Below are positions 5,591 to 34,725 of a DNA stretch of 39,240 bases, piece by piece. Source of the DNA: Streptomyces sp. 8K308 (GTDB lineage: Bacteria > Actinomycetota > Actinomycetes > Streptomycetales > Streptomycetaceae); NCBI RefSeq assembly GCF_004348315.1, contig NZ_SMKC01000027.1:1-39240 (forward strand), written 5' to 3'. The position numbers and the translations under genes were made by a program. The notes beneath the pieces were generated by a model, which did not search any database, was not told the DNA's origin, and saw nothing but the letters and a program-made list of their open reading frames with translations. The first letter of the stretch is position 1; every line of letters begins with the position of its first letter.

Positions 5591-5803
5591 CTACCGCGAG
5601 GCCGCCGACCGCTGGAAGTCCCGGACCGACCGCGGCCGCATGTCCGTCCACACCGACTCGATGTGGGAGAGACATTCCTCCCTGGTCCCCCTCCTGCCCT
5701 CCGGCCGCCAGCCCGCCGGCAGGTCCAAGCCGTGAGGCCAGATAGAGTACTGCTCCTCATCGTTGACGACGACCGCGAACGCCTCGTTCGACACGTCACT
5801 CAC
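5591..5803 (-). CDS. MbtH-like protein
   Basis: This 70-residue MbtH-family chaperone carries the hallmark NDEEQYSIWP, LPAGWRPEG, ECLSHIESVWTDMRP and a final SVR. MbtH proteins bind NRPS adenylation domains and are needed for their folding or activity. The GTG at 5803 is chosen because AAGGAGA lies six bases upstream; the longer frame to 5854 would lie inside NRPS1. The start overlaps the NRPS1 stop by 8 bases, so translation is probably coupled and the partner is most directly the NRPS1 adenylation domain. It is the only MbtH gene in the window and probably also serves the two adenylation domains of NRPS2. Confidence 0.96.
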   Translation of the reverse strand: MSDVSNEAFAVVVNDEEQYSIWPHGLDLPAGWRPEGRRGTREECLSHIESVWTDMRPRSVRDFQRSAASR

Positions 5804-8800
5804 CAGATTCTCCTTCGCTCGTACTGACACTGCCGCCCGCCGGTCCGAGTTCACCCACTCGGGCCTGACGCACGATGCGGGAGATCCGCTCCACCACGTT
5901 CGCCGTTCCCACCTCGTCAGCGAGTGCCCGCGAAACGGACTCGACCGTGGGATCGCGGAACACCTTGACCGGAGGCACTTCTATCCGCATGAGCACACGC
6001 ATGCGCGAGATGAGGCGGACGATGTCCAGCGAACGTCCCCCCATGGAGAAGAAGTTCTCTCGCCTGCCGACCTGGTCGGCTGACACGCCGAGGATCTCCG
6101 CCCACAGTTCGGCCACGAGCAGCTGAGTGTCACCCGCCGGTGCGGCGTCCGTGTCCGGACGGGAACGGTCCGTCTGGTCCGGGCGTGGGAGCGAACTCCG
6201 GTCGACCTTCCCGTTGGCGTTCAACGGGATCCGGTCGACCGGCACGATCCAGTGCGGCAGGAGATACGACGGCAGCGTCTCCCGCAGGAACTCCCGCAGC
6301 TCCGCCCCGGAGGGTCCCGGACGACCGCCCTCCCGCACCACATAGGCCGCGATGCGTGACCGCCCGCGCGGCTCCGAGGCCGCGAGAGCCAACGCCTGAC
6401 GCACCTCGGGGTGCCGCTCAAGTGCCGCCTCGATCTCCCCGGGTTCCACCCGATGGCCGTCCACCTTCACCTGCTCGTCGACCCGCCCCAGGAACTCGAA
6501 GGCACCGGACGCGTTGAGCCGGCCGACGTCCCCGGTCCGGTACATGCGCGCACCGGGCACCCCGGAGAAAGGGTCCGGCAGGAACCGCTCGGCGGTCAGC
6601 GCGGCACGTCCCACATAGCCGCGTGCCACACAGTCGCCACCGATGTACAGCTCGCCTGCCGCGCCGACCGGTTGGGGTTGAAGATGGGCATCGAGCACGT
6701 ACATCCGGGTGTTGGCGATGGGGCGGCCGATCGGAACGACCGTCTGGTGCTCGGTGCCGCTGATCCGGTGGACCGTGTTCCCGACCGATGCCTCGGTCGG
6801 GCCGTACTCGTTGAGGACGGGCGTCCGCGGCGCCAGGTCCCGCCAGGCGTCGAAGGAGCGTCTGGGAAAGGCGTCGGCCCCGACCACGAGGGTGTGGCAG
6901 AGGACCGCGGCGGACCGCTGGTCCAACTGGTCGTTGAGGAGGTCCAGATGGCCTGGGGTGAGCTTCACGAAGGCGTAGGGGGCGCGGCGCGTCAGCTCTT
7001 TCGCCAGGTCGCCGGGGGTCGCCTCGTGCGGCAGCAGGTGAAGCTCCTGCCCACAGACCAGCGGCCCGTACAGGTCAGGCACCAACATGTCGAAGGCGAA
7101 GGACGAGAACACTGGCGCGCCTCCGCCGTTTCCCGCCACGTACTCCCGGACGCACCACGTCAGGTAGTTCACCAGCCCCCGGTGTTCGACCATGACTCCT
7201 TTCGGCACGCCCGTGGACCCGGAGGTGTGAATGACGTATGCCAGGTTCCTCGGGCCCACCTCGCGCGGCGGCGGGGTGGTGGCGGCGCGCCGCACCGCCT
7301 CGCCCTCCGGGTCGAGTCGTGGGCCGTCCGTCCAGAAGACCGCACGCTCCGGAGGGGCGACGAGCACGGCCGCACCGGGACCGGTCATCATGAGCCGCTT
7401 GCGTTCGTCGGGGTAGTCGGGATCGATGGGAACGTAGGCGCCGCCCGCTTTCAGGATCCCCAGCAGTGCGGCCACCATCCCGGGTGAGCGGTCGACGCAC
7501 ACGCCGACGGTCACGTCCGGCCCGACCCCCGTCTCCCGCAGGCACCAGGCGACCTGGTTGGCCCATGCCTCCAGTTCGGCGTATGTCAGGGTCCGCCCGG
7601 AGGAGTACACGGCGATCGCTTCCGGCACCCGTGAGACCTGCTGCTCGAACAACTCGTGGACGCATGCTTCCGTCGGGTAAGGGCCGGACACGTCATTGAC
7701 GCGCGTCAGGAGTTCGATGTCCTCGGTCGAGCGTGCGTCGAGCGCGGAGAGGCGCGCTGAGGGATCCGAGCAGGCGCTGTCGAGCAGGGTGACCAGGTTG
7801 TCTGCCAGCAGGGCCACGGTGTCCGCGGTGAACAGGTCCGTGCTGAACGTGAGGAGCCCGTCGATGCCAGTGCGGCTCTCCGTGAGGGACACGACCAGGT
7901 CCGTCTTGGACGTCGCGGTGTCGATCAGCCGGGCGGACCAGTCGAGCCCCGGGGGCGGGGGCCCGGCCACCGGCTCCTCGAGCTCCAGGATGGTCTGGAA
8001 CAGCGGCGTACGGCTGACGTCGCGCTCACCCACGACGTGGTCGACCAGGGCATCGAAGGGCAGGTCCTGGTGTGCGTGGGCAGCTCGCAGACGGCCCCAG
8101 ACGTGCGCGAGGAAGTCCTCGAAGCGGGGATCGCCCGGAAGGTCGGCCCGGAGCGGCAGCGTGTTGAACATCGGACCCACGACGGTTTCCGTCTCGGCCC
8201 GGTCCCGGTTGGCCGTGTTGACGCCGACGATGATGTCCCGCTGGCCCGAGTACCTGCGGAGCAGGGCGTGGTAGGCGGCCAGGAGGACGGCGAACACGGT
8301 GACCTCGTACTCCCGGGCGACGCGCCGCACCGCCTCCGCCAGGGGCCGTGGGATGTGGAAGGAGTGCGTTCCGCCGCGGAAGGTGGGCACCGCGGGCCGC
8401 GGCAGGTCCGTCGGCAGGTTGACGGGCTCCGGTTCGTCCGTCAGGACCTCGGCCCAGTAGCGGAGGGCCGGCGCCAGGGACCCCGCGTCGAGAGCGCCTC
8501 GCTGCCATGCCGCGAAGTCGTCGTACGTGATGTCCCGGTCCGGCAGCCGAAGCTCGGCCCCCTGGTCGGCGGCCTGGTAGGCGGCGGCCAGCTCGCGGAT
8601 GAGCAGCCCGATCGACGCGCCGTCGCTGACGAGGTGGTGGAGGGTCAGCAGGAGGGTGTGGCGTCGCTCGGCGAGCTGGACCAGGTCGGCCCGGAACAGT
8701 GGACCGTTGGCGAGATCGAACGGCTCCGTGGCCCGGCGGGTCAGGAGTGACTCGGCGGCTGCCCGGGCCTCGTCCGGTGGGCCGGGGGTCAGGTCATGAC

Positions 8801-10031
8801 GGGTCAGGAGGACCGGCTGCGTGGCGGGCACGGGGCGTGGCCTCCCGTCGACCTCCTGGAACGCCGTGCGAAGCGTCTCGTGCCGCTCGACGACGACGGC
8901 GAGGGCCGTCTCCAGCGCTCGCGGGTCGAACGGCCCTTGGATGTCCAGGGCCCATGGCATGTGGTAACTGGCGGTTCCCGGCCGAAGTCGCTCGAGGAAC
9001 CAGATCCGTTCCTGCACCGGGGAGGCGAGACGGTCGTGGCCTCGCCGTGCGGCCGTCAGCGGAGGCAGGGAGAGCGCGGAGCGACCGGAGCGTACACCGG
9101 CTATCGCCACGGCCGTCTCACGCACGGTTGGGCCGGCCAGAATGACGTCGGCCGGGATTTCCGGACCGAATTTCTCCCGCAGCCGGCTGACGGCCCTGAG
9201 AGCCTGGATCGAGCTGCCTCCCAGACCGAAGAAATTGTCATTCCCCGCTACCCGGTCGACCTCCAGAACCTCCTGCCAGATCTCGGCAACCGCGCGTTCC
9301 AAGGGGCGCTCGGGACGGGACAGGGCCACCGCCGGGGACGGACCGTACCGCTCGTCGCCTGGCCCCGTGCCGCTGTTCCGGAGGAAACCGGCCACCGCCA
9401 CCGGCACCGTCGGGTCGGTGAGACACTCTCGCAGCGTGTCGAGAAAGTCCCTGAGGAATTCCCGGACCGAGTCGTGGTCGTACCGGTCCGCGTCGAAGAG
9501 GCAGTGGACGTCGGCGCCTGCCTCCTCCCCGCCGGCACGGGGCGCGTAGCAGATCACCAGGTCCAGGTCCGCGTGTCGTCGCGCGGCCTCGCGCACGCGG
9601 TGCCCATCGCCGGGTTCCCCTTGGCCGGCGGTGAGGCCGGTGACCAAGGCGACCCGGGCTGCCTGGCCGGTCCGCGAGGGGGCCCGACCCTCCGGGGAGG
9701 CCGACCGCCGCACCGACAGGTCCGCCACGAGGTCCGCCAGGGCACTGTTCGCCGTCACCCTCGTGCTGACCCGCTCTTCGGCAGCCGGCGTTCCCGAGGC
9801 GTCGGCCCTGAGCACGACCGCCGACAGGTGCGTCCGGCCGGTGCGTCGGCACAGGACGGCGCACAGAGCCGCGAGGGGCAGGGAGTCCCGGTGCTCCGAC
9901 CGGGCGGCCGCCAGCCGGGCCGTCTCCGCCGGCACGGCAAGCCAGCAGTGCTCCCGCAGGAACCGGGGTACGGGCGACGCGCGACGAGTGGCGGGCAGGG
10001 TGACGGGCTGCCCCAGGGGCTCGTTGCTCAT
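5796..10031 (-). CDS. Nonribosomal peptide synthetase 1 (half C-T-C-A-T)
   Basis: This is a 1411-residue NRPS. Residues about 20-225 resemble only the C-terminal lobe of a condensation domain and lack the HHxxxDG lobe. A carrier domain follows (LGGSS, serine about 274), then a full condensation domain (about 320-755, HHLVSDG near 465), an adenylation domain (about 788-1283; HTSGSTGVPKG, NEYGPTEASVGN, NANGKVD) and a second carrier domain (MGGRS, serine about 1334). By eye the specificity code is DMPKVGEVGK, identical to the last adenylation domain of NRPS2 and nearest to aspartate/asparagine codes. There is no thioesterase or epimerase. The ATG at 10031 has GGGAG eight bases upstream; the frame opens with a GTG at 10082. 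The stop overlaps mbtH. Confidence 0.95.
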   Translation of the reverse strand: MSNEPLGQPVTLPATRRASPVPRFLREHCWLAVPAETARLAAARSEHRDSLPLAALCAVLCRRTGRTHLSAVVLRADASGTPAAEERVSTRVTANSALADLVADLSVRRSASPEGRAPSRTGQAARVALVTGLTAGQGEPGDGHRVREAARRHADLDLVICYAPRAGGEEAGADVHCLFDADRYDHDSVREFLRDFLDTLRECLTDPTVPVAVAGFLRNSGTGPGDERYGPSPAVALSRPERPLERAVAEIWQEVLEVDRVAGNDNFFGLGGSSIQALRAVSRLREKFGPEIPADVILAGPTVRETAVAIAGVRSGRSALSLPPLTAARRGHDRLASPVQERIWFLERLRPGTASYHMPWALDIQGPFDPRALETALAVVVERHETLRTAFQEVDGRPRPVPATQPVLLTRHDLTPGPPDEARAAAESLLTRRATEPFDLANGPLFRADLVQLAERRHTLLLTLHHLVSDGASIGLLIRELAAAYQAADQGAELRLPDRDITYDDFAAWQRGALDAGSLAPALRYWAEVLTDEPEPVNLPTDLPRPAVPTFRGGTHSFHIPRPLAEAVRRVAREYEVTVFAVLLAAYHALLRRYSGQRDIIVGVNTANRDRAETETVVGPMFNTLPLRADLPGDPRFEDFLAHVWGRLRAAHAHQDLPFDALVDHVVGERDVSRTPLFQTILELEEPVAGPPPPGLDWSARLIDTATSKTDLVVSLTESRTGIDGLLTFSTDLFTADTVALLADNLVTLLDSACSDPSARLSALDARSTEDIELLTRVNDVSGPYPTEACVHELFEQQVSRVPEAIAVYSSGRTLTYAELEAWANQVAWCLRETGVGPDVTVGVCVDRSPGMVAALLGILKAGGAYVPIDPDYPDERKRLMMTGPGAAVLVAPPERAVFWTDGPRLDPEGEAVRRAATTPPPREVGPRNLAYVIHTSGSTGVPKGVMVEHRGLVNYLTWCVREYVAGNGGGAPVFSSFAFDMLVPDLYGPLVCGQELHLLPHEATPGDLAKELTRRAPYAFVKLTPGHLDLLNDQLDQRSAAVLCHTLVVGADAFPRRSFDAWRDLAPRTPVLNEYGPTEASVGNTVHRISGTEHQTVVPIGRPIANTRMYVLDAHLQPQPVGAAGELYIGGDCVARGYVGRAALTAERFLPDPFSGVPGARMYRTGDVGRLNASGAFEFLGRVDEQVKVDGHRVEPGEIEAALERHPEVRQALALAASEPRGRSRIAAYVVREGGRPGPSGAELREFLRETLPSYLLPHWIVPVDRIPLNANGKVDRSSLPRPDQTDRSRPDTDAAPAGDTQLLVAELWAEILGVSADQVGRRENFFSMGGRSLDIVRLISRMRVLMRIEVPPVKVFRDPTVESVSRALADEVGTANVVERISRIVRQARVGELGPAGGSVSTSEGESGE

Positions 10032-10226: not shown

Positions 10227-11462
10227 GTGCATCCTCAAAAGCTGGGATTTGCCAAGGTTTGGCTCTCCGCGTCCTTTTCGAATCTCGCTGACGGACTCTT
10301 CCTCATCGGAGCTCCCCTCGTCGCGCTGACCGTCACCGACTCCCCGGCGCTCATAGCCGGCTTACGCGTGGCGCAGACCCTGCCGTGGTTCGTTCTCGGC
10401 CTCTTCGTCGGGGTCCTGGTCGACCGGGTGGATCGACGGGTCCTGGCGATCTACGCGGAACTGCTGCGCGGCTCCGCGCTGATGCTCGTGGCGGCCGTGG
10501 CCGCCTTCGGCGAGCTGGGTCTCCCGGTGCTTTACCTGGCGGTGGCGCTCGCGGGTGTGGCCGAGACCGTCGCGGACACCTCGACCCAGACACTCGTGCC
10601 CATGGTCGTCCCGGCCGAACGCCGTCGCCGCGCCAACGGCCGGCTGATGGCGACCCAGATGGTGATGAACGACTTCGTCGGAGCGCCGTTGGGGTCGTTG
10701 CTCGTCGCAGGAAGCGTCGCGGTGGCCTTCGCCGTACCCGGGGGTCTCTACCTCGGCGCCGGCCTGATCCTGCTGACACTGGCGGGCAGGTTCTCCGTCG
10801 GGCGAGCCAAGCGGCAGAGCGTGGCAGTCGACATCAGGGAAGGGCTCGGCGTCCTCGTGCGTGGCTCCGTCATCGCACGCCTCACGCTGTACGCCGTGGT
10901 GACGAACCTCACCAACACCGCCTTCTTCGCGGTGTTCGTGGTGTACGCCGTGGGGAGCGGCTCGATCCTCGGACTCTCCGGATTCGGCTACAGCCTGCTC
11001 CTCATCGCGGCGGCCGTGGGGGCCATATCCGGTGCGCTGACCGCGGACCGGGTGGCTCGGGTGGCGCCCACCTCCGTGCTCCTGACCACCGCGGTGCTCG
11101 CCCTGGCGGTCTGCTTCGCCACGCCCTACCTCGTCAGGCAGCCCGTCGTCATCGGGGCCGCGTTCGTCCTGTCGGGCTTCGCCATGGCGGTGGGCTCGGT
11201 GGTCAACACCTCACTGCGGCAGGATCTCGTTCCCATCCATCTGTTCGGGCGCGTCGCCGCGGGCCTGCGCTTCCTGACATTCGGCGCCCGGCCGGTGGGA
11301 GCGCTCGCGGGTGGTCTCGTGGCCGAGGCGATCACCCCGACCAGGCTGTTCGGCGTCCTGGCCGTGCTGGTACTGCCGTTGGTCCTGGTCACCGCACGGT
11401 TGCGCGTGCCCGAGGCCGCGCCGGCGGACACGACCGCGCCCGACGGGTCCCAGGCCGGCTGA
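10227..11462 (+). CDS. MFS exporter
   Basis: This 411-residue membrane protein of the MFS_3 (enterobactin exporter EntS-like) type has about 12 hydrophobic segments. The MFS loop between segments 2 and 3 is visible as GVLVDRVDRR, and the halves are joined near residue 200 by a polar loop. It probably exports the peptide product and may give self-resistance. The GTG start at 10227 follows a purine-rich GGGAAGG. Codon 46 (10362-10364) is TTA, a codon rare in Streptomyces, so translation may depend on the bldA tRNA. It is divergent from NRPS1 and convergent with the free condensation gene, 21 bases away. Confidence 0.92.
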   Translation: MHPQKLGFAKVWLSASFSNLADGLFLIGAPLVALTVTDSPALIAGLRVAQTLPWFVLGLFVGVLVDRVDRRVLAIYAELLRGSALMLVAAVAAFGELGLPVLYLAVALAGVAETVADTSTQTLVPMVVPAERRRRANGRLMATQMVMNDFVGAPLGSLLVAGSVAVAFAVPGGLYLGAGLILLTLAGRFSVGRAKRQSVAVDIREGLGVLVRGSVIARLTLYAVVTNLTNTAFFAVFVVYAVGSGSILGLSGFGYSLLLIAAAVGAISGALTADRVARVAPTSVLLTTAVLALAVCFATPYLVRQPVVIGAAFVLSGFAMAVGSVVNTSLRQDLVPIHLFGRVAAGLRFLTFGARPVGALAGGLVAEAITPTRLFGVLAVLVLPLVLVTARLRVPEAAPADTTAPDGSQAG

Positions 11463-11483: not shown

Positions 11484-12803
11484 TCACAGCGGGCGGCTGC
11501 CCGCCACCCTCGTCCGCACACCGTCCAGGACACCGTCGATCGCGGTGGCGGACATCAGGCGGCCGTCGGCGAACATCCGGAGGACGACATCCTCCTGATT
11601 GGCCACCAGGGTCAGGCCGTAGCGCAGGAACGAGGACGTCACCGTGGGACCCGGAACGGTCACCCACGCGTCCCTGCCGAGTGCCTGGAAGACTTCCGTC
11701 GGGTGCAGGGGGACGTGCTCCTCGACGAAGTTCACGTAGTGGCCCACATGCGGCTTGCCAGTGAGCTCGCGCAATACACGGTTGACGTCGGCCGGCTCGT
11801 AGGCGCTGCTTTCGTGCACGGTGAGCAGCGCCTCCCAGGTCCTGGTGATGACGTCGGACGCCGGCGCGCCCAGGGAATCGAGGCGGATGACACCCTGCTG
11901 GGCGACGGTCCCGGCATAGCCCGCCATCCTGCGGGCCATCCGGTTCCCGCACGTGACGACGACCGACTGCGCGTCGACGCCCTGATGAGCGGCGAGCGCG
12001 GCGGTCGCCGCCCCGATGAACACCGCCGAGATGCCGACGTCCAGCCGGTCGGCCAGCTCCTGCGCCCGGGCGCCAAGCCCTCGCGCACACAGCAGCCGGG
12101 CCGGAAAGGCCGGGTCGGCGGCCGGCAGGGACGGTGCTTCGGGGAGGCTGGCCGGCGTTCCGGTGAGCGCCTGGCGCCACAGCTCAGCCGCCCGTCGTGA
12201 GGCCGCGCGCCCCGCCGAGGACTGCTCCCCCTCCGCCTGGTCCAGGGGCTGCAGGACGGCCGGGCGGCCAGGCTCCGGGTCTGGTGCGCCCGCCATCCTC
12301 GCCGCGGCTGCCCGCAGATCACGCCGCAGGATCTCCGTCCCGGCCGCGTCCACCGCAAGGTGGGACAGCGCCGCGCCGAGCCACAGCGCCCGCCCGTCCA
12401 GGACAGCCACACAGAACCGCGCGGGGTACTCCTGGGTCGGCTCGAAACGCCTGGCCGCGAGGTCGCGCACCGGATCCACCGGGCTCCCGCCCCGGTCCTG
12501 GCCCGCGGCGTCCACGATCAACACCGGGTGAACGCCGCGCCGGTCCACGACCTGGGTGGGCGGCTCTCCGGGCGACTCGGCGAATCGCGTCCGCAGAATC
12601 TCGTGCCGCTCGATGAGGAGACGCAGGGAGGCCAAACCGTCATCGAGGAGGGTCCCGGCCGGCAGCTCCCAGCGCACGGCCATGTTGAAACGGGCGTCGT
12701 GGGGCCGGTTCGCGACCATGGTGGCCCACTGCTCGCGCTGGCCCCAGGTCGTCGGTCCGTGTGCGCCACGCTCTCCGTGGAACGAAAGGTCAACGTGAGG
12801 CAC
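11484..12803 (-). CDS. Free-standing condensation-domain protein
   Basis: This 439-residue protein has the size and layout of a single NRPS condensation domain: an N-lobe with RLLIERHEILRTRFAE and a C-lobe with GNRMARRMAGYAGTVAQQGVIRLD in place of the usual latch region. The active-site motif HHxxxDG is changed to SHLAVDA. The second, catalytic histidine and the aspartate remain, but the first histidine and the glycine are lost. It could condense a carrier-bound acyl chain with a free amine and so release the product, which would compensate for the missing thioesterase. The GTG start at 12803 lies 14 bases inside the M20 gene, so the two are coupled. It is the last gene of the luxR-M20-C operon. 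Confidence 0.88.
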   Translation of the reverse strand: MPHVDLSFHGERGAHGPTTWGQREQWATMVANRPHDARFNMAVRWELPAGTLLDDGLASLRLLIERHEILRTRFAESPGEPPTQVVDRRGVHPVLIVDAAGQDRGGSPVDPVRDLAARRFEPTQEYPARFCVAVLDGRALWLGAALSHLAVDAAGTEILRRDLRAAAARMAGAPDPEPGRPAVLQPLDQAEGEQSSAGRAASRRAAELWRQALTGTPASLPEAPSLPAADPAFPARLLCARGLGARAQELADRLDVGISAVFIGAATAALAAHQGVDAQSVVVTCGNRMARRMAGYAGTVAQQGVIRLDSLGAPASDVITRTWEALLTVHESSAYEPADVNRVLRELTGKPHVGHYVNFVEEHVPLHPTEVFQALGRDAWVTVPGPTVTSSFLRYGLTLVANQEDVVLRMFADGRLMSATAIDGVLDGVRTRVAGSRPL

Positions 12804-15157: not shown

Positions 15158-18100
15158 ATGAGCGCCGACCCATTCCCCTCAACCGATGGAGATCTTTCCG
15201 TCGGGAGGGTTGTCGATGCCCTGCTCCGCAAGGAGGGGATCCATACGCCGGCCGGCGGGTCACTTCCGTTGACGGGGCAGCGGAAAGCCGTGCTGTCCTA
15301 CGGACAGCGGCGCATCTGGTTCTTCGAACAGTGGCATCCGGGAACCCCCACCTACAATGTGGCCAACGCCTACTGGGTCCGCGGGCGGCTCGACCCCGCG
15401 ACGCTCAGCCAGGCACTCGGAGTGCTGGCGGATCGTCACGAGACCCTGCGGACACGCTATCTGACCCTCGATGATGAACCGTTTCAAGTCGTCGAGACTC
15501 TAGCAAGCATTCCGCTGAGCGTCCATGACGTCGCGGAGAGTGCAAGCAAGGGGTGGGACGTCGCCGCCACGGCGATGGCGGAGCGGGTCGCCAGGGAGCC
15601 GTTCGACCTGCGGGGCGGGCCGCCCTTCCGCGTCGCGCTGGTCCAGGGACCGGGAGAACGACAGCTACTCGTCATCGTCGTGCACCACATCGCGCTCGAC
15701 GGCATCTCCTTCGACATCCTGCTCGACGAGCTGCGCAGGGTGTACGACGCCGTGTCCGCCGCGCGTCCCACGGAACTCGGCGCGCCGGCCGTCCGGTACA
15801 TCGACTTCTGCGTCTGGGAACGCGAGCGTTGGGAGGCGGGCGGGCTTGCCGAGCAGACCGACTACTGGCGGCAGCGGCTGGTCGGGGCTCCCGAGGTACT
15901 CGACCTGCCCACCGATCGCCCCAGGCCGCAGACGCAGACCTTCACGGGCGCCACGCGCGCCTTCCCGGTGCCGCCCGCGCTGGACCGCCGCCTGCGCATG
16001 CTGGCCGTCGAGTCGGGAGTCTCGCCGTTCGTCGCCTACCTGGCGGCCTTCAACGTGCTGCTGCTGCGCTTCACTGGCGTCGAAAACCTGGTGGTCGGCA
16101 CTCCGGTCGCCACCCGGGGCCGGTCCGAGTTGGAAGGGCTTGTCGGGGTCCTGCTGAACCTCCTGCCGCTGCGGGTCGACCTGTCGGGCGAACCGGACTT
16201 CCACGAGGTGCTGCGTCGGGTGGCGGGCTCCACGACCATGGCCTTCGCCCACCAGGACGTGCCCTTCGAGCGGCTCGTCGCCGAGACCGGGGTCCGCAGG
16301 CAGCTCAGTCACAGCCCGATCGTGCAGACCGTGTTCGGCATGCAGCCCGCCCCGCTGGCCCGGCTGTCCATGGGTGGGGCCACCCTGGTGCGCGCTGAAC
16401 TCGACCGCGGGACCGCGAAGTTCGACATGACCTGGACCGTGCTCGACGGCGACCGGGTCTGCTGCGAGGTCGAGTACAACGCGGATCTCTTCGACGCGGA
16501 CTCCGTGGACCGCATGCTGGACTGCTACCTGCGGCTCATCGAGGCCGTCGTGACGGCGCCGCACGCTCCCGTGACACGGGTGCCGATGTATCCGCCCCCG
16601 GCTCGGTCCGGCCGGTCGAACCCGACCACGGAGGTGCCGGCCGAAGCGCCGGCCGTGCCCGCCCTCGTCGCCCGCTGGGCACGCGAGACGCCGGACGCGG
16701 TCGCGGTGACCTGCGGGGACGAGCGGGTCACGTACGCGGCGCTCGACGAGCGGGCGCGGCGACTGGCGGACCTGCTGCGCGCGCGGGGGGCCGTCCCGGG
16801 CGAGACGGTCGGCATCTGCCTGCCGCGTGGCGTCGAACTGGTCGTGGCGATCCTCGCGGCCTGGCGGATCCGCTGCGCGTATCTGGCGCTTGACCCCGAG
16901 TATCCCCCCGGGCGCCTGGCCTACCTGCTCGGTGACTCGCGCATCCGGCTGATCGTGGCAGGCCCTGAGGCCGCGGACCGGATACCGGAAGGCGACTGGA
17001 CCCTGTTGACGTCGCGGCAGGGCCCGGCTCAGCCGCCGTCCGGCGCGCCACCGGTGACGGACCCCGGCGGCGCGCGGCCGGGCGACGTGGCCTACCTCAT
17101 CTACACGTCCGGGTCCACCGGCTCCCCCAAGGCCGTCGAGGTAACCCACCACAACGTGGCCCGTCTGTTCTCCTCCGTGCGGGGCCTCTTCGACTTCGGC
17201 GAGCGCGACGTGTGGACGATGTTCCACTCCCCCAGCTTCGACTTCTCCGTCTGGGAGATGTGGGGTGCGCTGGCGCACGGCGGACGGCTCGTGATCGTGC
17301 CCACCGCCGTCGCCCGCTCGGCGCCGGACTTCTACGACCTGGTCGTCGCCGAGGAAGTGACCGTCCTCAGTCAGACGCCCTCTGCCTTCCGGCAGTTCGA
17401 GGGGGTGGACGCGGAACGACCCGGTTGCCTGGCGTTGCGTTGGATCACTCTGGGAGGCGAGGCGGTCGACGTGGCGAGTACGAGTCGATGGCTGCGGCGG
17501 CACGGGGACGAGTCACCGCGTCTGGTGAACATGTACGGGATCACGGAGACGACCGTTCACGTCACTCACCAACGTCTGACCTCGGAGATGCTGGGCGACG
17601 AGCGCAGTCCGATCGGGACGCCCCTGCCGGACCTGGAGGTGCACGTCCTGGACGCGTGGGGCAATCCGCTGCCCCCGGGTGTGCCCGGTGAGATGTACGT
17701 GGGCGGGGCCGGAGTGACCCGGGGCTATCGGAACCAGCCGGCACTCACCGCGGAACGGTTCGTCCCGGACGCCCTGTCGGGTCGGGCCGGAGCCCGGCTC
17801 TACCGCACCGGGGACCTGGCCAGGCGACGCCCGGACGGCCGGCTTGAGTACCTGGGCCGGAACGACGACCAGGTCAAGATCCGCGGCTTCCGCGTCGAGA
17901 CCGGGGAGATCGCCACCCTCCTCGCACGTCACCCGCGGGTGCGGGGCTCGGTCGTCGTCGCGGCACGCTCGGCCGACGGTTCCGCCCGGCTGGTGGCGTA
18001 TGTGGTGGCACCGGACGTGCCCACGCTGACGGAACTGCGATCCCATCTGGCCGCCGGCCTGCCGGAGCACATGATCCCTGCCACCTTCGTGTTCCTTGAC

Positions 18101-21100
18101 TCGCTGCCGACGACGGAGAACGGGAAGGTCGATCTCTCGGCCCTGCCGGAACCCGCCTCCGCCCGGCCCGAGTTGGCTCAGGGCTTCACGGAGCCGCGCA
18201 ACGATGTCGAGAGTCTCCTCGCGCGGATCTGGTCCGACGTTCTCCAGGTGGACCAGGTCGGCGTCCACGACAACTTCTTCGAGCTGGGTGGGGACTCCAT
18301 CCTGAGCCTCCGCATCCTGGGCCGGGCCCGGGAGCACGGACTGGGTCTCACCCTGCAGGACCTGTTCGGGGAACCCACCGTGGCCGGCATGGCCCGGCTG
18401 GCCAGGCCGGCCGAGCGGCTGCCGGGTCGCACGTCGGATGGGCCGTTCGCGTCCCTCTCCGCCGAAGAACGCCTTCGTGTCCCCGAGGGCGTCGAGGACG
18501 CGTATCCCATGTCCGTGCTGCAGGCCGGGATGGTCTACCACATGAGCATGGACACCGACACGTTGCCCTACCACAACGTGAACAGTTTCCACGTTCGGGC
18601 GCCGTTCGACGCCAAGACGTTCCAGCGCGCGGTGGACGACGTGGTCGCGCGGCACCCGATCCTCCGCACCGGCTTCGACCTCGTCCGGTACGGCAAGCCC
18701 ATGCAGTTGGTGCACCGGTCGGCACACCTGCCCGTCCACACGCAGGACCTGCGTGACGTCCCCCCCGGGGAGCAGAAGAGGCGGCTGCTCGATCTGATGC
18801 ACGAGGAGCGGCAGCGCCCCTTCGACCCGGAGCACCCCCCGCTGCTGCGCTTCTTCCTCCACCGCAGGACCGCGGACACCTTCCAGTGGACCGTGACGGA
18901 ACATCACGCCATCTTCGACGGCTGGAGCCTGTTCTCGACGCTCGCCGAGATCCTCGACCGCTACACGACCCTGCTGGGCGCACCGGACGCTCCGGCGCCC
19001 GCGCCGCCCTCCTCGTCGTTCCGGGACTTCATCGCCGAGGAGCAGCGGGCGATCGCCTCGGCACCGCACCGCGAGTTCTGGCGGCAGGCGCTCGCCGACT
19101 ACGAGCCCGCCATGCTGCCCCGGTGGCCCTCGACCGGCGAACAGCGGGCAGGGGGGGCCGACGCCGGAGACACCGACGTGCGGGGCGAGGACATCGCCGG
19201 CGTACGGCACTGGCGGCTCACCTCGACCCGCGACGCCAGCCATCGGGGCCTGGAGTCGTTGGTCCCCGCCGAGCTGTGCGACGCCCTGGTATCCCTGGCG
19301 GCCCGGATCGGCGTGCCGCTCAAGAGCGTCCTGCTCACGGCGCACCTGAAGATGATCAGCCTCTTCACGGGACGAGACGACCTGATCACCGGCCTGACCT
19401 CCCACGGGCGTCTGGAGGAGTCCGACGGCACCGAGGTGCGGGGCATGTTCCTGAACGTGCCGCCCCTGCGCGTGAGACTCGCCAACGGCACCTGGGCGGA
19501 CCTGATCCGCCACGTCTACCGGGCGGAGGAACGGCTCCTGCCGCACAGGCGCTATCCACTGGCGCAGATCCAGTGGGACCACGGTGGTGGGGAGCTCTTC
19601 GACAACACGTTCCTCTACAACCACTTCCACGTGATGAGCGACGTGCTCGGTTCGGACGTGGAGATCCTGGACGACAAGATCGACTCCACCACGGAGTACC
19701 GTTCTGAGCCCACGAGTTTCGCGCTCAACGCCGGTTTCCTGCGCAACCCGCGCACCTCGGGGCTCCTGCTCAGGCTCGACTACTACACCGCCAGGCTCTC
19801 GGACGAGCAGGCACTCGCGATGCGCGACCAGTACCTCGCGATCCTGCGGACCTTGGTCGACGCCGGGCGCCCCCACGAGGAGTTCGTGCCGCTGCCCGAC
19901 GCGGACCGCCAGCGGGTGCTCATCGACTGGAACGGCCCACGACGTACCGAGCCGGTCTCCCACTGCGTCCACGAACTGGTGGAGGAACAGGCCGAGCGCA
20001 CGCCCGACGCCATCGCCGTGTGTGACGACACCCGGCAGTTGACCTACGCCCAGCTCAACGCCGCGGCCAACCGCCTCGCCCGCCACCTGCGGTCCCTGGG
20101 GGCCCGGGCGGAGACCGTGGTCGGCGTGTGCGTGCCGCGCGACGCCGGGCTCCTCGTCACACTCCTCGGGATCCTGAAGTCCGGAGCCGCCTACCTTCCG
20201 CTCGTCCCCGACTATCCAGCTGAGCGGCTGCGCTTCATGCTCGAGGACGCCAACGCCACCCTGGTCGTCACCACCGACGACCTGGTCAACCGAGTCCCGG
20301 ACGGCGCGTGGCGGGTGATCACCGACCACCGCGACGGCGAGGCGATCGACCGGCAGGCCACGGACAACCTCACCACCGTGAACGGCCCGGACAACCTGGC
20401 GTACATCATGTACACATCGGGTTCGACCGGGACCCCGAAGGGCGTCCTGGTACCGCACCGGGGCGTCGCCAACTACCTGGTCTGGGCACGCGAGGAATAC
20501 GCCTCGCGAGGCACGGGAGGCGCCGCGGTGTTCTCCTCCTACGCGTTCGACATGATCGTGCCCAACGTCTACACCCCCCTCATCATGGGTGAGCGGGTTG
20601 TCGTGCTCCCCCAGGACACCGACCCCACCCGCCTCGGTCGGCGCCTGTCCGAGTACGCGCCGTTCAACTTCCTGAAGCTGACGCCAAGTCACCTGGCCCT
20701 GCTCGCTGACACGCTGGGACCGGCCTCGGCCCGCCGGCTGGCAGCCACCCTCGTAGTCGGCGCCGACGCCTTCCCCGGCCGCCACCTCGCGGCCTGGCGC
20801 CAGCTCGACCCGGACTCGGTACTGCTCAACGAGTACGGCCCGACGGAGGCGTCCGTGGGGAACTGCGTCTATCGCACGGGCGCCGCCGCCCACCGGGACC
20901 TCGTACCGATCGGCCGGCCCATCCCGGACACCACCATGTACGTCCTCGACGCCCACCTGAGGCCGGTGCCCCCGGGCATGCCGGGCGAGCTGTACATCGG
21001 TGGCGAGTGCGTCGTCCGGGGGTACGCCGGCCGACCGGCTCTGACCGCCGAGCGCTTCCTGCCCGACCCCTTCTCCACGACGCCGGGGGCCCGCATGTAC

Positions 21101-21763
21101 CGCACGGGCGATCTGGGTCGCTGGCTGCCCGACGGGAGTCTCGACTTCCTGGGTCGGGTGGACGACCAGTTGAAGATCAACGGCTTCCGCGTGGAGCCCG
21201 GCGAGATCGAAGCGGTACTGGCGGAGCACCCGAAGGTGCGCCAGGCGGTGGCGGCCGGGGTGCGGTCGGCCGCGCACCACCGCACGCTCGTCGGGTACTA
21301 CGTTCCGGCCCAGCCGGTGTCCCCCGCCGAGCTGTCCGACTACCTGCGGAGCAGACTCCCGGCACACCTGGTGCCGACGGCCCTGGTGCCGATCGCCGAG
21401 ATCCCGGTCAACGCGAACGGCAAGGTCGACCGCTCGGCGCTGTCCCGGCCCGACGCCATGGAGCACGCCCGCCGGCAGGAGGAGGCGACCAACGGCGGAG
21501 CGGCCGTGCGGCCCGCCCCGGGAGGCACGCATCAGGCGGGCGTCGCGGAGATCTGGGCGGACCTGCTGGAGATGGAGAAGCCCGAGACGGCGGCCGACTT
21601 CTACCAGCTCGGCGGGAACTCGATCCTCGCGGCACAGCTGGTGTCCAGGATCAACGCCCGGTTCGGAATCCGTCTGTCCATGTCGGTCATGCGGCGTGCC
21701 CGCACCGTCGAGGCGCTCGCCCAGCAGGTGGCCGAGGCGCTACAGAACAAGGAAGGTGCATGA
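15158..21763 (+). CDS. Nonribosomal peptide synthetase 2 (C-A-T-C-A-T)
   Basis: This is a 2201-residue dimodular NRPS. C1 (about 40-480) has HHIALDG at 176. A1 (about 495-1000) has YTSGSTGSPKA, MYGITETTVH and ENGKVD; its code by eye is DFWSTGMVHK, close to threonine (DFWNIGMVHK). T1 has LGGDS with serine 1047. C2 (about 1113-1590) has HHAIFDG at 1249, opens YPMSVLQAGMVYHM and carries a polar insert near 1325-1350. A2 (about 1601-2100) has code DMPKVGEVGK, the same as NRPS1. T2 has LGGNS with serine 2155. There is no thioesterase, reductase or epimerase. GGAGG lies seven bases before the ATG. An N-terminal C domain means it accepts a chain, probably from NRPS1. Its stop overlaps the carbamoyltransferase start. 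Confidence 0.96.
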   Translation: MSADPFPSTDGDLSVGRVVDALLRKEGIHTPAGGSLPLTGQRKAVLSYGQRRIWFFEQWHPGTPTYNVANAYWVRGRLDPATLSQALGVLADRHETLRTRYLTLDDEPFQVVETLASIPLSVHDVAESASKGWDVAATAMAERVAREPFDLRGGPPFRVALVQGPGERQLLVIVVHHIALDGISFDILLDELRRVYDAVSAARPTELGAPAVRYIDFCVWERERWEAGGLAEQTDYWRQRLVGAPEVLDLPTDRPRPQTQTFTGATRAFPVPPALDRRLRMLAVESGVSPFVAYLAAFNVLLLRFTGVENLVVGTPVATRGRSELEGLVGVLLNLLPLRVDLSGEPDFHEVLRRVAGSTTMAFAHQDVPFERLVAETGVRRQLSHSPIVQTVFGMQPAPLARLSMGGATLVRAELDRGTAKFDMTWTVLDGDRVCCEVEYNADLFDADSVDRMLDCYLRLIEAVVTAPHAPVTRVPMYPPPARSGRSNPTTEVPAEAPAVPALVARWARETPDAVAVTCGDERVTYAALDERARRLADLLRARGAVPGETVGICLPRGVELVVAILAAWRIRCAYLALDPEYPPGRLAYLLGDSRIRLIVAGPEAADRIPEGDWTLLTSRQGPAQPPSGAPPVTDPGGARPGDVAYLIYTSGSTGSPKAVEVTHHNVARLFSSVRGLFDFGERDVWTMFHSPSFDFSVWEMWGALAHGGRLVIVPTAVARSAPDFYDLVVAEEVTVLSQTPSAFRQFEGVDAERPGCLALRWITLGGEAVDVASTSRWLRRHGDESPRLVNMYGITETTVHVTHQRLTSEMLGDERSPIGTPLPDLEVHVLDAWGNPLPPGVPGEMYVGGAGVTRGYRNQPALTAERFVPDALSGRAGARLYRTGDLARRRPDGRLEYLGRNDDQVKIRGFRVETGEIATLLARHPRVRGSVVVAARSADGSARLVAYVVAPDVPTLTELRSHLAAGLPEHMIPATFVFLDSLPTTENGKVDLSALPEPASARPELAQGFTEPRNDVESLLARIWSDVLQVDQVGVHDNFFELGGDSILSLRILGRAREHGLGLTLQDLFGEPTVAGMARLARPAERLPGRTSDGPFASLSAEERLRVPEGVEDAYPMSVLQAGMVYHMSMDTDTLPYHNVNSFHVRAPFDAKTFQRAVDDVVARHPILRTGFDLVRYGKPMQLVHRSAHLPVHTQDLRDVPPGEQKRRLLDLMHEERQRPFDPEHPPLLRFFLHRRTADTFQWTVTEHHAIFDGWSLFSTLAEILDRYTTLLGAPDAPAPAPPSSSFRDFIAEEQRAIASAPHREFWRQALADYEPAMLPRWPSTGEQRAGGADAGDTDVRGEDIAGVRHWRLTSTRDASHRGLESLVPAELCDALVSLAARIGVPLKSVLLTAHLKMISLFTGRDDLITGLTSHGRLEESDGTEVRGMFLNVPPLRVRLANGTWADLIRHVYRAEERLLPHRRYPLAQIQWDHGGGELFDNTFLYNHFHVMSDVLGSDVEILDDKIDSTTEYRSEPTSFALNAGFLRNPRTSGLLLRLDYYTARLSDEQALAMRDQYLAILRTLVDAGRPHEEFVPLPDADRQRVLIDWNGPRRTEPVSHCVHELVEEQAERTPDAIAVCDDTRQLTYAQLNAAANRLARHLRSLGARAETVVGVCVPRDAGLLVTLLGILKSGAAYLPLVPDYPAERLRFMLEDANATLVVTTDDLVNRVPDGAWRVITDHRDGEAIDRQATDNLTTVNGPDNLAYIMYTSGSTGTPKGVLVPHRGVANYLVWAREEYASRGTGGAAVFSSYAFDMIVPNVYTPLIMGERVVVLPQDTDPTRLGRRLSEYAPFNFLKLTPSHLALLADTLGPASARRLAATLVVGADAFPGRHLAAWRQLDPDSVLLNEYGPTEASVGNCVYRTGAAAHRDLVPIGRPIPDTTMYVLDAHLRPVPPGMPGELYIGGECVVRGYAGRPALTAERFLPDPFSTTPGARMYRTGDLGRWLPDGSLDFLGRVDDQLKINGFRVEPGEIEAVLAEHPKVRQAVAAGVRSAAHHRTLVGYYVPAQPVSPAELSDYLRSRLPAHLVPTALVPIAEIPVNANGKVDRSALSRPDAMEHARRQEEATNGGAAVRPAPGGTHQAGVAEIWADLLEMEKPETAADFYQLGGNSILAAQLVSRINARFGIRLSMSVMRRARTVEALAQQVAEALQNKEGA

Positions 21764-23571
21764 TGCGTGTGCTGGGGATCAGTGGCCTGAACGGGTCGAT
21801 CGAGTTCAAGAAGCGGCACTTGCCGGATCTGGCGGACCGGGAGTACCGCGTTGTTCAGGGCCTGGACTCAGCCGCCGCACTCGTCACCGACGGCACCGTC
21901 GTCGCGGCGGCGGCCGAGGAACGGTTCACCGGGGACAAGACCACGGGTGCCTTCCCCGTCCGCGCCATCGAGTACTGCCTCAGGGAGGCGGGAATCGCCA
22001 TGCGCGACATCGATTTCGTCGCCCACGGCTTCCACTACCGGCCGTCGGAGTTCCACCAGCTGAACGAGTTCACGAACAGGCGTTTCTCCGATGTCTACGC
22101 CCCGGACGTCCAACGGGCCCTGTTGAACCACCACTGGCCCGACGTCGACTGGCAGGAGCGGTTCATCCCGGTACCCCATCACCTCGCTCACGCCGCGAGC
22201 TCCTTCTACGTGAGCGGATTCGACGAGGCACTGGTCGTCGTGGCTGACGGGATGGGCGAGACAGAGAGCATGACGGTGGCCGTGGGCCGCGGCAAGGACC
22301 TCGAGGTGCTCAGGACCGTGCCCGCGATCCACTCGCTCGGCACCCTGTACGGAGCCGTGACCCTCTACCTCGGCTTCGTCTTCGCGATGGACGAGTACAA
22401 GGTGATGGGTCTCGCCCCCTACGGCGATCCTCGTCGGTACTTCGACGAGGTGATGGAGCTGATCCGGCTCGGCCCCGACGGCACGTTCACCGTTCCGGCG
22501 CTGGGTGAGAACCGGGGCTGGCGTGAGCACGAGACGCTCGCCGGAACCCTGCGCGAACTCACCAGGCGCTTCGGCCCTCCGCGAGCCCCGGGCGCGGCCG
22601 TGGAAGAACGGCACCGGGACGTGGCGGCGGCGCTGCAGGCTGGCCTGGAGGCGGCCATGCTGCACGTCCTGCGACACTTCCGGGAGGTGACGGGCCAGCG
22701 GCGCCTCTGCCTGGCCGGAGGCGTGGCACTCAACTGCACCCTCAACGGCCTGACAGCGCGCAGCGGCTGGTTCGACGACATCTTCGTCCAACCGGCGGCC
22801 GGGGACGACGGCTCCTCGTTGGGAGCCGCCCTGTACGTCCAGGCGCAGCAGGCCGGCGTCGTCCCGGAGGCGCGCATGGGAGCGCCGTACTGGGGGCCGG
22901 GATACGACGACGATCTGGTGGGACTCGCCGTCGACAAGCGCCTGGAGTGCCCCAAGCGGCGCTATCTGTCGGACGAGGAGCTGGTGCCGGACGTGGCGAC
23001 CCTGTTGGCGCGGGGGCAGGTCGTGGCGTGGTTCCAGGGACGGATGGAGTTCGGTCCCCGAGCCCTGGGAAACCGCAGCATCCTGGCCGATCCCCGCGAT
23101 CCGGGCATGCGGGACCGGTTGAACGAGCTGGTCAAGCAGCGAGAGAACTTCCGCCCCTTCGCCCCCGTGGTGAGGGAAGAGGACGCCCACCGCTACTTCG
23201 ACATCCCGTCCGGCATGGAGCGGGCCTACGCGCACATGCTGCTGGTCGCCAGAACCCACGAGGAACACCGCGACACGTTGCCGGCCATCACCCATGTGGA
23301 CGGCACCGCGCGAGTGCAGATCCTCCGTCGGCAGGACAACGAACGGCTCTGGCGGCTCATCGGGGAATTCGGCCGCATCACCGGCGTCCCGGTCCTGCTG
23401 AACACCTCGTTCAATCTCCGTGGCCAGCCGATCATCTGTGATCCGGATGTGGCCCTGGAGACCTTCGTCCGCTCCCGGATGGATCACCTGGTGATGGGGA
23501 ACTACCTCCTCAGCAGGCCGGGCGCCGCGATGCGGGACCAGAAACCCGATGTCACGGCGGGCACTCGGTGA
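21763..23571 (+). CDS. Carbamoyltransferase (NodU/CmcH/TobZ family)
   Basis: This protein of about 602 residues transfers a carbamoyl group from carbamoyl phosphate, via carbamoyl-AMP, to a hydroxyl or amine. The N-terminal Kae1-like part has the HHLAHAASSFYVSGF metal-binding segment, VVADGMGE, and CLAGGVALNCTLNG. The C-terminal part has GRMEFGPRALGNRSILADPR and FRPFAPVV, typical of the family. Two ATGs lie in tandem at 21760 and 21763; I prefer the second because GGAAGG is then six bases away. It overlaps the NRPS2 stop (TGATG), so it is a tailoring or precursor enzyme of this cluster. The hydroxyl of a threonine-like residue or an amino group of a side chain could be the acceptor. Confidence 0.94.
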   Translation: MRVLGISGLNGSIEFKKRHLPDLADREYRVVQGLDSAAALVTDGTVVAAAAEERFTGDKTTGAFPVRAIEYCLREAGIAMRDIDFVAHGFHYRPSEFHQLNEFTNRRFSDVYAPDVQRALLNHHWPDVDWQERFIPVPHHLAHAASSFYVSGFDEALVVVADGMGETESMTVAVGRGKDLEVLRTVPAIHSLGTLYGAVTLYLGFVFAMDEYKVMGLAPYGDPRRYFDEVMELIRLGPDGTFTVPALGENRGWREHETLAGTLRELTRRFGPPRAPGAAVEERHRDVAAALQAGLEAAMLHVLRHFREVTGQRRLCLAGGVALNCTLNGLTARSGWFDDIFVQPAAGDDGSSLGAALYVQAQQAGVVPEARMGAPYWGPGYDDDLVGLAVDKRLECPKRRYLSDEELVPDVATLLARGQVVAWFQGRMEFGPRALGNRSILADPRDPGMRDRLNELVKQRENFRPFAPVVREEDAHRYFDIPSGMERAYAHMLLVARTHEEHRDTLPAITHVDGTARVQILRRQDNERLWRLIGEFGRITGVPVLLNTSFNLRGQPIICDPDVALETFVRSRMDHLVMGNYLLSRPGAAMRDQKPDVTAGTR

Positions 23572-24223: not shown

Positions 24224-24323
24224 TGTCTGGTCATGGACCCCCGAACGTGTGGCCCGGTTCACTGTGGCGCGAAGCCGGCGCGCGCCGACGGCGCTCGGTG
24301 CTCGCGCGATCAGGGAGGCCGCA

Positions 24324-25696
24324 ATGACGCAAACCCGGATACCGAGCGAGCGGGACAGGCCGCGGGCGGCGCGGCGAGGCCGTGGTATCGGCAGTTGTAC
24401 GTCCAGGTGCTCGTGGCGATCGTGATCGGCATCGTGTTGGGCTGGCGGTGGCCGGACGTGGGCACCGCCATGGAGCCGATCGGCACGACGTTCATCACCG
24501 CGATGAAGATGCTGATCGGCCCGATCGTGTTCCTGACCATCATCGGCGGCATAGCGGGCGTGGCGGACCTGAAGAGGGTCGGGCTCACCGGGCTCAAGGC
24601 GCTGACTACTTCCAGGTCGGCACGATCGTCGCGATGGCGGCGGGGCTGGTGGCGATCAACCTCTTCCGGCTCGGCGAGGGCGTGCACGCCGACCCGTCGG
24701 CCCTGGACACCTCCGGCGACGCGGGCGAGTACATCGAGGCGGGCGAGCGGCAGCAGTGGTGGGAGTTCCTCACCCACATCGTGCCGGACAGCTTGTTCGG
24801 CCCGTTCGTCGAAGGCGACGTCCTCCAGGTGATCTTCCTGGCGGTGATCTTCGCGATCGCGCCGAAGGCGGTGGGGAGGGCCGGGGAGCCGATCATCGAG
24901 GTGGGCCGGCTGACCGAGGTCGTCTTCAAGGTCCTGTCGTACGTCATGAAGGTCGCGCCGCTCGGGGCCTTCGGCGCGATGGCCTACGCCATCGGGCGAT
25001 TCGGCCTGTCCACGCTGACCAGCCTGGGTTCGCTGATCCTTCTCTTCTACGTCACCTCCGTCGTGGTCGTACTCGGCGGCGTGCTGGCGGCGTACGTGCG
25101 GCTGAACATCTTCCAGCTCTTCCGCTACTTCAGGGAGGAGTACCTGCTGGTCCTGGGCACGTCCACCGCCGAGCCGGCGTTGCCGGGGCTGATGCGGAAG
25201 CTTCAGCACCTGGGCGTCGAAAGGTCCACCGTCGGTCTGGTGGTGCCCACGGGCTACAGCTTCACCTGGACGACGCGGCGATCTACCTCTCCCTCGCCAC
25301 GCTGTACATCGCCCAGGCCACCGACACGCCGCTGTCCGTGCCCCAGCAACTCGGGCTGCTCGCCGTCATGCTGCTGACCTCCAAGGGCGCCGCGGCGTGG
25401 CGGGCGGCGGTTTCATCGCGCTCACCGCCACCCTCTCCACGGTCGGCACCGTGCCCGCCGCCGGCATCGTGCTTGTCTTCGGCATCGACAAGTTCATGTC
25501 CGAGTGCCGGGCCCTGGTGAACTTCTCGGGCAACGCCGTCGCCACCCTGTTCATCGCCCGCTGGGACGACACGCTGGATCTGGCGCCGGCCCGCGAGGTC
25601 CTCGCGGGCAGGGCGAAGGAGCCGCCGGCAGCGGCGGAGGCGGTGGGGGAAGAGAATCGGCCGGTCATGACTCGGAACGCCGAGGTGGCGTCCTGA
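24324..25696 (+). pseudogene. dctA: C4-dicarboxylate/cation symporter DctA, frameshifted
   Basis: The pieces read in order as a whole DctA (DAACS family, proton/sodium-driven uptake of malate, succinate or similar acids). The start MTQTRIPSERDRPR follows GGGAGG. Then come FITAMKMLIGPIVFLTIIGG, a middle part with YVMKVAPLGAFGAMAYAIG and [16 protein letters not shown], the substrate region VPTGYSF...[13 protein letters not shown], and [21 protein letters not shown]. Reading-frame changes fall near 24380, 24606, 25264 and 25395, each equivalent to one lost base. At the last three the missing base restores a doublet or triplet run. The last shift returns to the frame used after the first. It lies upstream of a LysR gene and a tartrate/malate dehydrogenase, which fits its role. 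Sequencing error is possible. Confidence 0.85.
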
Positions 25697-33529: not shown

Positions 33530-33966
33530 AGAGTTTGTCTCATGTGGTGATCTTGGCCAGCTTCTTGTAGCAGGTCAGAGCCGCTGCGAGTCCGAGGAAG
33601 GCCAGGAAGTGTGTGGCTTTCCGTTCGTATCGGACGGTGAGGCGGCGGTAGCCGAAGAGCCAGGAGATCGACCGTTCGATCTTCCAGCGGTGTCGGCCGA
33701 GGCGTTCGCTGGACTCGATGCCTGGCCGCGCGATGCGCGGGACGATGTTGCGGCCGCGTAGCCACCTCAGGTGCTCAGCCGAGTGGTAGGCCTTGTCTGC
33801 ACGGAGCTTGGCGGGGCGGCGCCGGCGCGGACCGCGCCGCGACCGGATCGCGGGTATGCCCAGGATCAGCGGCAGCAGGGCTTGACTGTCGTGGGCATTG
33901 GCACCGGACACACCGAGCGCCAGAGGTAAGCCCTGGGCGTCGGAGAGGACGTGCAGTTTTGGTGTC
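33530..33966 (-). mobile_element. C-terminal part of an IS5-family transposase
   Basis: The minus-strand frame ending at 33540 reads KLHVLSDAQGLPLALGVSGANAHD and continues through RADKAYHSAEHLRWLRGR, RIARPGIESSERLGRHRWKIERS and WLFGYRRLTVRYER. This is the second half of an IS5-type DDE transposase, including the final catalytic glutamate region. The N-terminal half is missing; at about 33966 the sequence passes into a different transposase. GAGTTTGTCTCA at 33531-33542 could be the terminal inverted repeat of the element. It cannot be active. Confidence 0.8.
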
Positions 33967-34725
33967 CGGCTTGGCGAAGCGGAACTCCTTGCCGTACTTC
34001 GGTGGCCTGCCGCCTTGGCGCGGCGAGACCCACGGCGTGGGGACGGGCTTGCGCATCACCCGGTCCGACCGCAGCCGCCCGAGGACCTCCACCGGCAGGC
34101 CGTCCAGGAGGAAGGCCATGCGTGGGGCGTCGTAGCCGGCGTCGAAGACGACGAGGATGTCGCGGTCGCCCTCGCGCCAGCGGCCTGCGGCGATGAGGTC
34201 CTTCACCACCCGGCGGACCTGGCGGGCGGTGACCTCGGCGACGATCGTCCTAGGGCCCGAGACGGCGTCCAGCAGCTGACACCACGAGGTGCGGCCCGAC
34301 TCCAGCGCGGCGACGAACGAGTACGGCCACCCGGGGATCATCAGGTGCTGCTCCCGGCTACGGCCGTACTCGTGGCAGAACAGCCGATTCGCGCTGGTAG
34401 GGGCATCCGGCCGGAGCCAGTTGCTCACGTCCACGGCCAGCACCAGCCGCCCGTTTGCGGCCTCGGGCTGCGACACGCTCGCCAGCAGTCGCCGCAGCCC
34501 GTTCGTATCGATCCGCCCGCGGTTCAGCGCGTCATACATCGCGCCGGTGCTCAGCCACCAGCGTCAAGTCCACCGGAGAGATCACGGGGCCGTCCGCGCA
34601 CAACAACGCGTCGGCAAGTTCGAACAGCTCGTCCCCCGTGCGGTCAGGCAGGCATAGAAGTCGTCCCGGAAGTGTGACGCAAGAGTGGACGGCTCCCGCT
34701 GGGCGTCGTGATGCAACAGGGTCAT
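33967..34725 (-). mobile_element. N-terminal part of an IS701/IS4-like transposase, frameshifted
   Basis: Three frames together read MTLLHHDAQREP...HFRDDFYACLTARG, then DELFELADALLCADGPVISP up to EHRR, then MYDALNRGRIDTNGLRRLL and the DDE-type core VLAVDVSNWLRPDAPTSANR and VVFDAGYDAPRMAFLLDG. This matches a large actinobacterial transposase family. Frame changes lie at a run of five C (34633-34637, plus strand) and near 34540, where a GGCGC unit appears lost. The protein is cut off after FRFAKPDTK, where the IS5-type fragment begins, so the locus is a fusion of two dead elements. Confidence 0.78.

Follow-up and report, generated by a model that had tools for sequence, protein, structure and literature searches.

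The N-terminus of NRPS1, a nonribosomal peptide synthetase (NRPS) of Streptomyces sp. 8K308, consists of half a condensation (C) domain, deltaC, fused directly to a carrier, T0, that has no adenylation (A) domain of its own. Our best reading, to which we assign a probability of roughly 0.6, is that T0 is a loading carrier that receives its residue in trans, an A domain within the same assembly line being the likeliest loader, and that deltaC is a non-catalytic remnant; the figure is held there because the loader can be named only as the most likely one. Of the separate parts, we have good confidence that T0 works and is loaded in trans, consider it probable that deltaC is mostly vestigial, and regard charging by an A domain of the same line as an even call.

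The window, that is the whole 39,240-nucleotide stretch analysed, is the entire contig C199 of a 7.76-Mb draft genome in 703 contigs, and since non-NRPS genes lie on both sides there is no obvious sign that a contig end truncates the cluster. NRPS1 runs from the ATG at 10031 to 5796 on the - strand (1411 aa; residue r lies at position 10031-3(r-1)) with the architecture deltaC-T0-C-A-T1, in which Pfam recognises two carriers, one C and one A domain. The features used below are:

5591..5803, - strand: MbtH-like protein overlapping the end of NRPS1, a possible A-domain helper (Pfam MbtH, 5e-21)
5922..6125, - strand: T1, the NRPS1 carrier with a cis A domain (second PP-binding stretch; GGRS)
6207..7649, - strand: A domain of NRPS1, core motifs present, pocket read as DMPKVGEVG (Pfam, motifs)
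7713..9026, - strand: C domain of NRPS1 with HHLVSDG intact (Pfam Condensation 1.8e-94, residues 336-773; motif)
9102..9305, - strand: T0, a carrier (PCP) without a cis A domain (Pfam PP-binding, motif, conservation)
9396..10004, - strand: deltaC, a C-terminal lobe remnant without the HHxxxDG lobe, residues ~10-212 (hhalign and structural match)
11484..12803, - strand: stand-alone C-domain protein, SHLAVD replacing HHxxxDG (Pfam Condensation 1e-14; motif)
15158..21763, + strand: NRPS2, C-A1-T-C-A2-T, with a Thr-like A1 code and DMPKVGEVG in A2 (Pfam, codes)
21760..23571, + strand: carbamoyltransferase, the marker for finding related clusters (Pfam)

The cluster also encodes an MFS transporter, an M20 hydrolase of the carbamoylase/allantoate amidohydrolase family, a LuxR-type regulator and a LOG-like protein; Pfam showed no thioesterase domain in NRPS1 or NRPS2. 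A literature search on carbamoyltransferase together with NRPS gave nothing pertinent to the product, which may be linked to purine breakdown. Elsewhere in the window, a sodium:dicarboxylate symporter is split over two frames (24233-25520; a pseudogene or a sequencing error), and two overlapping - strand ORFs at 33540-34539 resemble transposase fragments by eye.

Pfam gives no match for residues 1-224 of NRPS1, even at E 10, so the assignment of deltaC rests on more sensitive tests. A two-sequence hhalign profile of the N-termini from the window and from the orthologous cluster of Micromonospora sp. KC606 aligned with columns 206-440 of a 470-column C-domain profile (probability 97.4, E 1.4e-11), and the single sequences did so with probabilities of 98.0 (window) and 93.7 (KC606), while 60 shuffles of the window N-terminus, a control for composition only, peaked at 0.4. 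The C profile combines the C domains of the window and KC606 with others harvested from the loci, and is not fully independent because some of these were found with the same N-terminus and some are repeats of one gene. Its alignment begins at the inter-lobe linker (LPATRRASPVPRF vs LPTDLPRPAVPTF) and several C-lobe stretches are missing from deltaC (190 aligned vs 235 profile columns). No HHxxxDG motif precedes residue 465 of NRPS1, and the catalytic N-lobe is absent. Phmmer searches with residues 1-224 matched C-lobes weakly among NRPSs of the genus (best E 2.8e-6, query 68-215), revealing no orthologue and weak C-lobe matches in at least 47 of 392 genomes, its own included, among the best 7 candidates per genome. 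Against the PDB the weak C-lobe match (7kw2, E 5.2) ranked below chance matches; the top sequence matches there were TAL repeat proteins (E 0.48 and up), which we took as chance.

Structure prediction agrees with the profile comparison. An AlphaFold model built on an alignment of the window and KC606 only had a pLDDT of 54, with C domains and carriers among its best Foldseek matches at low confidence; a second, whose alignment included C-lobes, reached a pLDDT of 68, and its residues 3-212 superpose on C-lobes with Z 12-13 (2jgp 280-517: Z 13.0, rmsd 3.7, 173 aligned). The sequence-only reading, which had assigned residues 20-225 to the C-terminal lobe of a C domain alone, is thus borne out with limits of ~10-212 (hhalign 97.4-98.0). 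It had named as a refutation that the N-terminus should model as a full domain of another type; the models were examined for this and we discarded the idea, there being no Pfam match at E 10 and a fit of the second model to C-lobes. A catalytic N-lobe upstream of NRPS1 was likewise rejected, as a divergent MFS gene starts at 10227 and leaves only ~200 bases, as was an assembly error at the deltaC-T0 junction, because the same junction occurs in KC606.

T0 is recognised by Pfam as a PP-binding domain at residues 247-307, with the motif LGGSS and the phosphopantetheine Ser274 at 9210-9212. The next domain is the C domain at 336-773, with no A domain between or upstream, as had been proposed from the letters alone; the region singled out at that time, 9200-10031, holds the feature but stops short of the end of T0 at ~9102. 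An HMM scan of all window frames of at least 100 residues located just three A domains, one in NRPS1 and two in NRPS2, with no stand-alone A next to the carbamoyltransferase, which upholds the earlier claim that the cluster encodes none. A carrier that precedes a C domain and has no A domain in cis, in a cluster with an MbtH-like protein, is the arrangement of A-less modules of the CmnI/VioI type; it differs from the ThdA type, a half C followed by its own A, in that T comes directly after deltaC.

KC606 came to light when 84,980 species genomes were scanned with a joined query; two relatives of the stand-alone C protein were obtained, one of them in this strain. Its cluster, in a different genus and an independent assembly, matches the window almost gene for gene: NRPS1 is 49% identical (residues 10-1391) and likewise deltaC-T0-C-A-T1, NRPS2 60%, MFS 67%, stand-alone C 45% (starting at the NRPS1 stop), M20 58%, LuxR 47% and carbamoyltransferase 70%. 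The LOG-like gene was not found in the 40 kb of KC606, and an HMM scan of the same 40 kb gave no match to a stand-alone A of the type seen in other Micromonosporaceae (below). In both species NRPS1 has a tail behind T1 and NRPS2 has an extension before its first C domain and no tail, which, read by eye, suggests that NRPS1 precedes NRPS2 in the assembly line. Xanthine dehydrogenase, allantoinase-like amidohydrolase and uricase genes adjoin the KC606 cluster (L033 6671-13061, L034 15204-16757), and a glutamine amidotransferase protein reading like PurF lies inside it.

Conservation of T0 is roughly on a par with that of the catalytic domains, and that of deltaC is not. Identities to KC606 and to a paralogous cluster in the same genome (below) are, respectively, 51 and 46% for T0, 47 and 42% for T1, 53 and 44% for the N-lobe of the NRPS1 C domain, and 60% for the NRPS1 A domain, which the paralogue lacks; deltaC has 37% with 29 gap columns and 24% with 80 gap columns. 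The C-lobe of the full C domain (53 and 34%) shows that a real C-lobe is better conserved over the same pairs. An earlier global alignment to KC606 had given 30% for residues 25-224 and 56% for the T0 core. The GGxS serine is present in 10 of 10 aligned T0s (of 14 labelled as such), a count that is partly built in because the ten were cut at GGxS. In a carrier tree the T0s of the window, KC606, the paralogue and genome G144 form a clade (support 99/92), which adjoins the last carrier of NRPS2, served by A2, with support that is not strong (92/80) and on few tree columns. The 14 labelled T0s are not one clade (4 changes needed), those of Micromonosporaceae relatives with a stand-alone A forming a separate one, so these relatives may have reached the design separately.

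Relatives were located with the carbamoyltransferase as marker, which was found at six loci spread over 5 of the 392 genomes of the genus (all six examined) and, in a close form, in 18 of 354 Micromonosporaceae genomes, of which we examined the neighbourhoods in 10, KC606 included, and left out G431, G445, G455, G564, G572, G603, G640 and G688. The genome of the window itself carries a second, paralogous cluster on contig C699, in which NRPS1' is T0-C-T1 with no A domain and has 160 residues before T vs 234 in NRPS1. By hhalign this shorter N-terminus reaches 9.2 with the C profile and 3.7 with the deltaC family, for which 60 shuffles did not exceed 1.2; that it is probably an eroded deltaC is indicated by its collinearity and by the stretches LPGDLPEPVVPQFFR and DRYS. 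NRPS2' is 50% identical to NRPS2 and has a tail, and a third NRPS comes next (L055 17702-21004), whose A domain is missing its middle and C-terminal parts in frame, through decay or misassembly. G144 has T0-C-T1 at a contig end. G610 also has T0-C-T1 (40% identical to NRPS1 over 247-762), and none of the three frames upstream of it gives a C-lobe or deltaC signal (probability 2.4 at most); the space between the LuxR-type regulator and the NRPS1 homologue there holds a helical-looking ORF of 110 residues (L108 12143-12475).

Five Micromonosporaceae (G585, G638, G666, G685, G642) encode a stand-alone A, then the carbamoyltransferase, then deltaC-T0-C-A-T, complete in four and cut by a contig end after C in G642. 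Their deltaC signal is weak (12-26 bits; hhalign alone against the C profile 56.4, 21.2, 38.2, 71.3 and 70.5, in that order of genomes), and the idea that their stand-alone A genes bear a deltaC of their own did not hold (hhalign 0.5 and 0.8). G359 starts with a C-lobe (hhalign 95.7) followed by A-T, the ThdA-like order, and G369, G383, G448 and G715 have T-C-A-T beside the carbamoyltransferase without deltaC. A relative of the stand-alone C protein is present in G618, with no other cluster protein within the 21 kb examined, and Streptomyces phaeoluteigriseus (L025) has only this relative on a 4.2-kb contig, the best NRPS1 match in its genome being 40%. Stand-alone C-type proteins are common in Micromonosporaceae, at least 124 of 354 genomes having one at E 1e-30 among the best 4 candidates each.

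Specificity pockets were read from anchored motifs at the Stachelhaus positions. In the window the codes of NRPS1 A and NRPS2 A2 are identical, DMPKVGEVG; the corresponding KC606 codes differ from one another (DAPKVGEVA and DMPKAGEVG), and A2 of the paralogue and of G144 again reads DMPKVGEVG. Since this resembles DLTKLGEVG, which we take to be an Asn code, the residue selected is probably Asn-like, and the NRPS2 A1 code reads as Thr. The NRPS1 homologues of the paralogue, G144 and G610 contain no A domain for T0 or T1. In the first two, an A2 shared among carriers is the simplest reading, because T1 there also lacks an A domain. Such sharing cannot be general: the second A domain of the G610 NRPS2 homologue (L080 7277-13693) has no TSGSTG and looks dead, and without that core motif A2 cannot load T0 there.

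We therefore favour the following course, in which NRPS1 would be the initiating subunit of a small assembly line with T0 as its loading carrier. T0 would be charged in trans by an A domain that also serves another carrier, NRPS1 A or NRPS2 A2 being likeliest, presumably with help from the MbtH-like protein. The NRPS1 C domain, judging from position, would take its donor from T0 and join the T0 residue to that on T1, and the dipeptide would move on to NRPS2. DeltaC would catalyse nothing, having been left from the C domain of an ancestral C-A-T module after loss of the N-lobe and the A domain, and might keep a minor role in holding T0 or docking an A domain. Because relatives keep T0 while deltaC decays or vanishes, the T0 arm is probably functional and receives its load from a neighbour.

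The alternative that we rate highest, possible if fairly unlikely, is that T0 depends for loading on a stand-alone A or acyl ligase whose gene is not part of the cluster. The five Micromonosporaceae clusters, with their stand-alone A by the carbamoyltransferase and deltaC-T0-C, favour it and support trans loading of T0 by analogy. The window genome, too, holds a 541-residue stand-alone A frame outside the cluster, on contig C33, the only one found, and with this frame elsewhere the word 'must' in the earlier statement that T0 must be loaded in trans or be a vestige was too strong. However, the C33 protein is only 37% identical to the relatives' dedicated A, and its counterparts in G144 (83%) and KC606 (68%) give it the look of a gene that is widespread and belongs to another pathway. 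Searching the window genome with the dedicated A gave 7 matches at E 1e-40 or better, six inside long NRPS frames, the best (40%) within NRPS2; no closer stand-alone match turned up among these NRPS-A-like proteins. The dedicated enzymes themselves share one code, DIL..VIW, presumably Gly-like.

That deltaC is functional as a docking platform for a trans A domain we judge unlikely. The C-lobe is the half of a C domain that contacts the A domain in normal modules, which favours such a role. CmnI needs a 20-residue N-terminal extension to bind its trans A (PMC12400406). Against this, no part of NRPS1 is less conserved than deltaC, which is shorter in the paralogue and goes undetected in G610.

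A broader proposition, which we hold to be quite doubtful, is that this NRPS family is dismantling its A domains. DMPKVGEVG, present twice in the window, would serve three carriers there; the paralogue and G144 would have lost the NRPS1 A domain, leaving A2 alone for T0, T1 and T2; and in G610 A2, too, would have lost its core motif. A shared trans enzyme would then load the residue, and the assembly line would be on its way to a dissociated design. The residue itself may be asparagine-like and rich in nitrogen, with a link to the breakdown of purines.

It is improbable that the stand-alone C protein supplies condensation in trans, with T0 as the acceptor of an elongation module that draws on both its C and its A in trans. 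This protein is kept beside NRPS1 in KC606, a C-domain protein follows NRPS1 in G610, and 3 of 3 aligned sequences retain the motif's second His and its Asp. But the G610 protein shares only 23% identity across a span of 302 residues, none was found in the 21-kb paralogue contig (cut by its end), and, there being no thioesterase domain seen in NRPS1 or NRPS2, the stand-alone C could equally release the product. That T0 is itself a vestige carrying nothing is very unlikely: the cluster has no identified loader, but T0 is as conserved as T1 with its serine in 10 of 10 aligned (a count partly built in), G610 retains it without deltaC, and the adjoining intact C domain needs a carrier-bound donor, so that the vestige suggested from the letters alone fits the half C domain and not the carrier.

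The preferred reading, a trans-charged T0 behind a remnant deltaC, has precedents for its parts. According to PMC12400406, CmnI of capreomycin module 3 is, like T0-C here, a T-C unit without an A domain, whose T was measured to be charged in trans by CmnA-A1 with an MbtH-like protein, as we infer for T0; it differs in having a 20-residue disordered extension where NRPS1 has a half C domain. Viomycin, andrimid, syringomycin and yersiniabactin are cited as further cases of A sharing. ThdA (thermoactinoamide; PMC7253712) likewise opens its first module with a truncated, probably inactive C domain, for which a C-lobe-A contact is stated, but there the loading module's own A (Leu) follows, whereas in NRPS1 T follows directly. 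The MbtH-dependent trans A domains Cal22/Cal23 (WS9326A, Streptomyces calvus; PMC7539972) serve A-less modules; they are dedicated stand-alone genes, as in the five deltaC-T0-C relatives, whereas the window cluster has none. The X* of glycopeptide NRPSs resembles deltaC as a C-like leftover of a module with a decayed A, but sits elsewhere in the NRPS, before A remnants and not before an intact A-less carrier (PMC1894796). Searches of open-licence papers worded for partial C domains or for a lacking A domain in NRPSs gave none, and deltaC-T fusions may be reported elsewhere; there is precedent for A-less modules loaded in trans (CmnI) and for C domains truncated at an NRPS N-terminus (ThdA), and their direct fusion, seen here in stages of decay, would be new.

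If correct, this reading would place these proteins as naturally occurring steps from an ordinary starter module to a carrier loaded in trans: deltaC-A-T in G359, deltaC-T0 accompanied by a stand-alone A, deltaC-T0 lacking such a gene, and T0 with no deltaC. Two practical questions could then be tested, namely by what route a carrier is taken over by another module's A domain and whether this requires the C-lobe, and structure predictors that count one residue per A domain would miss one in this product.
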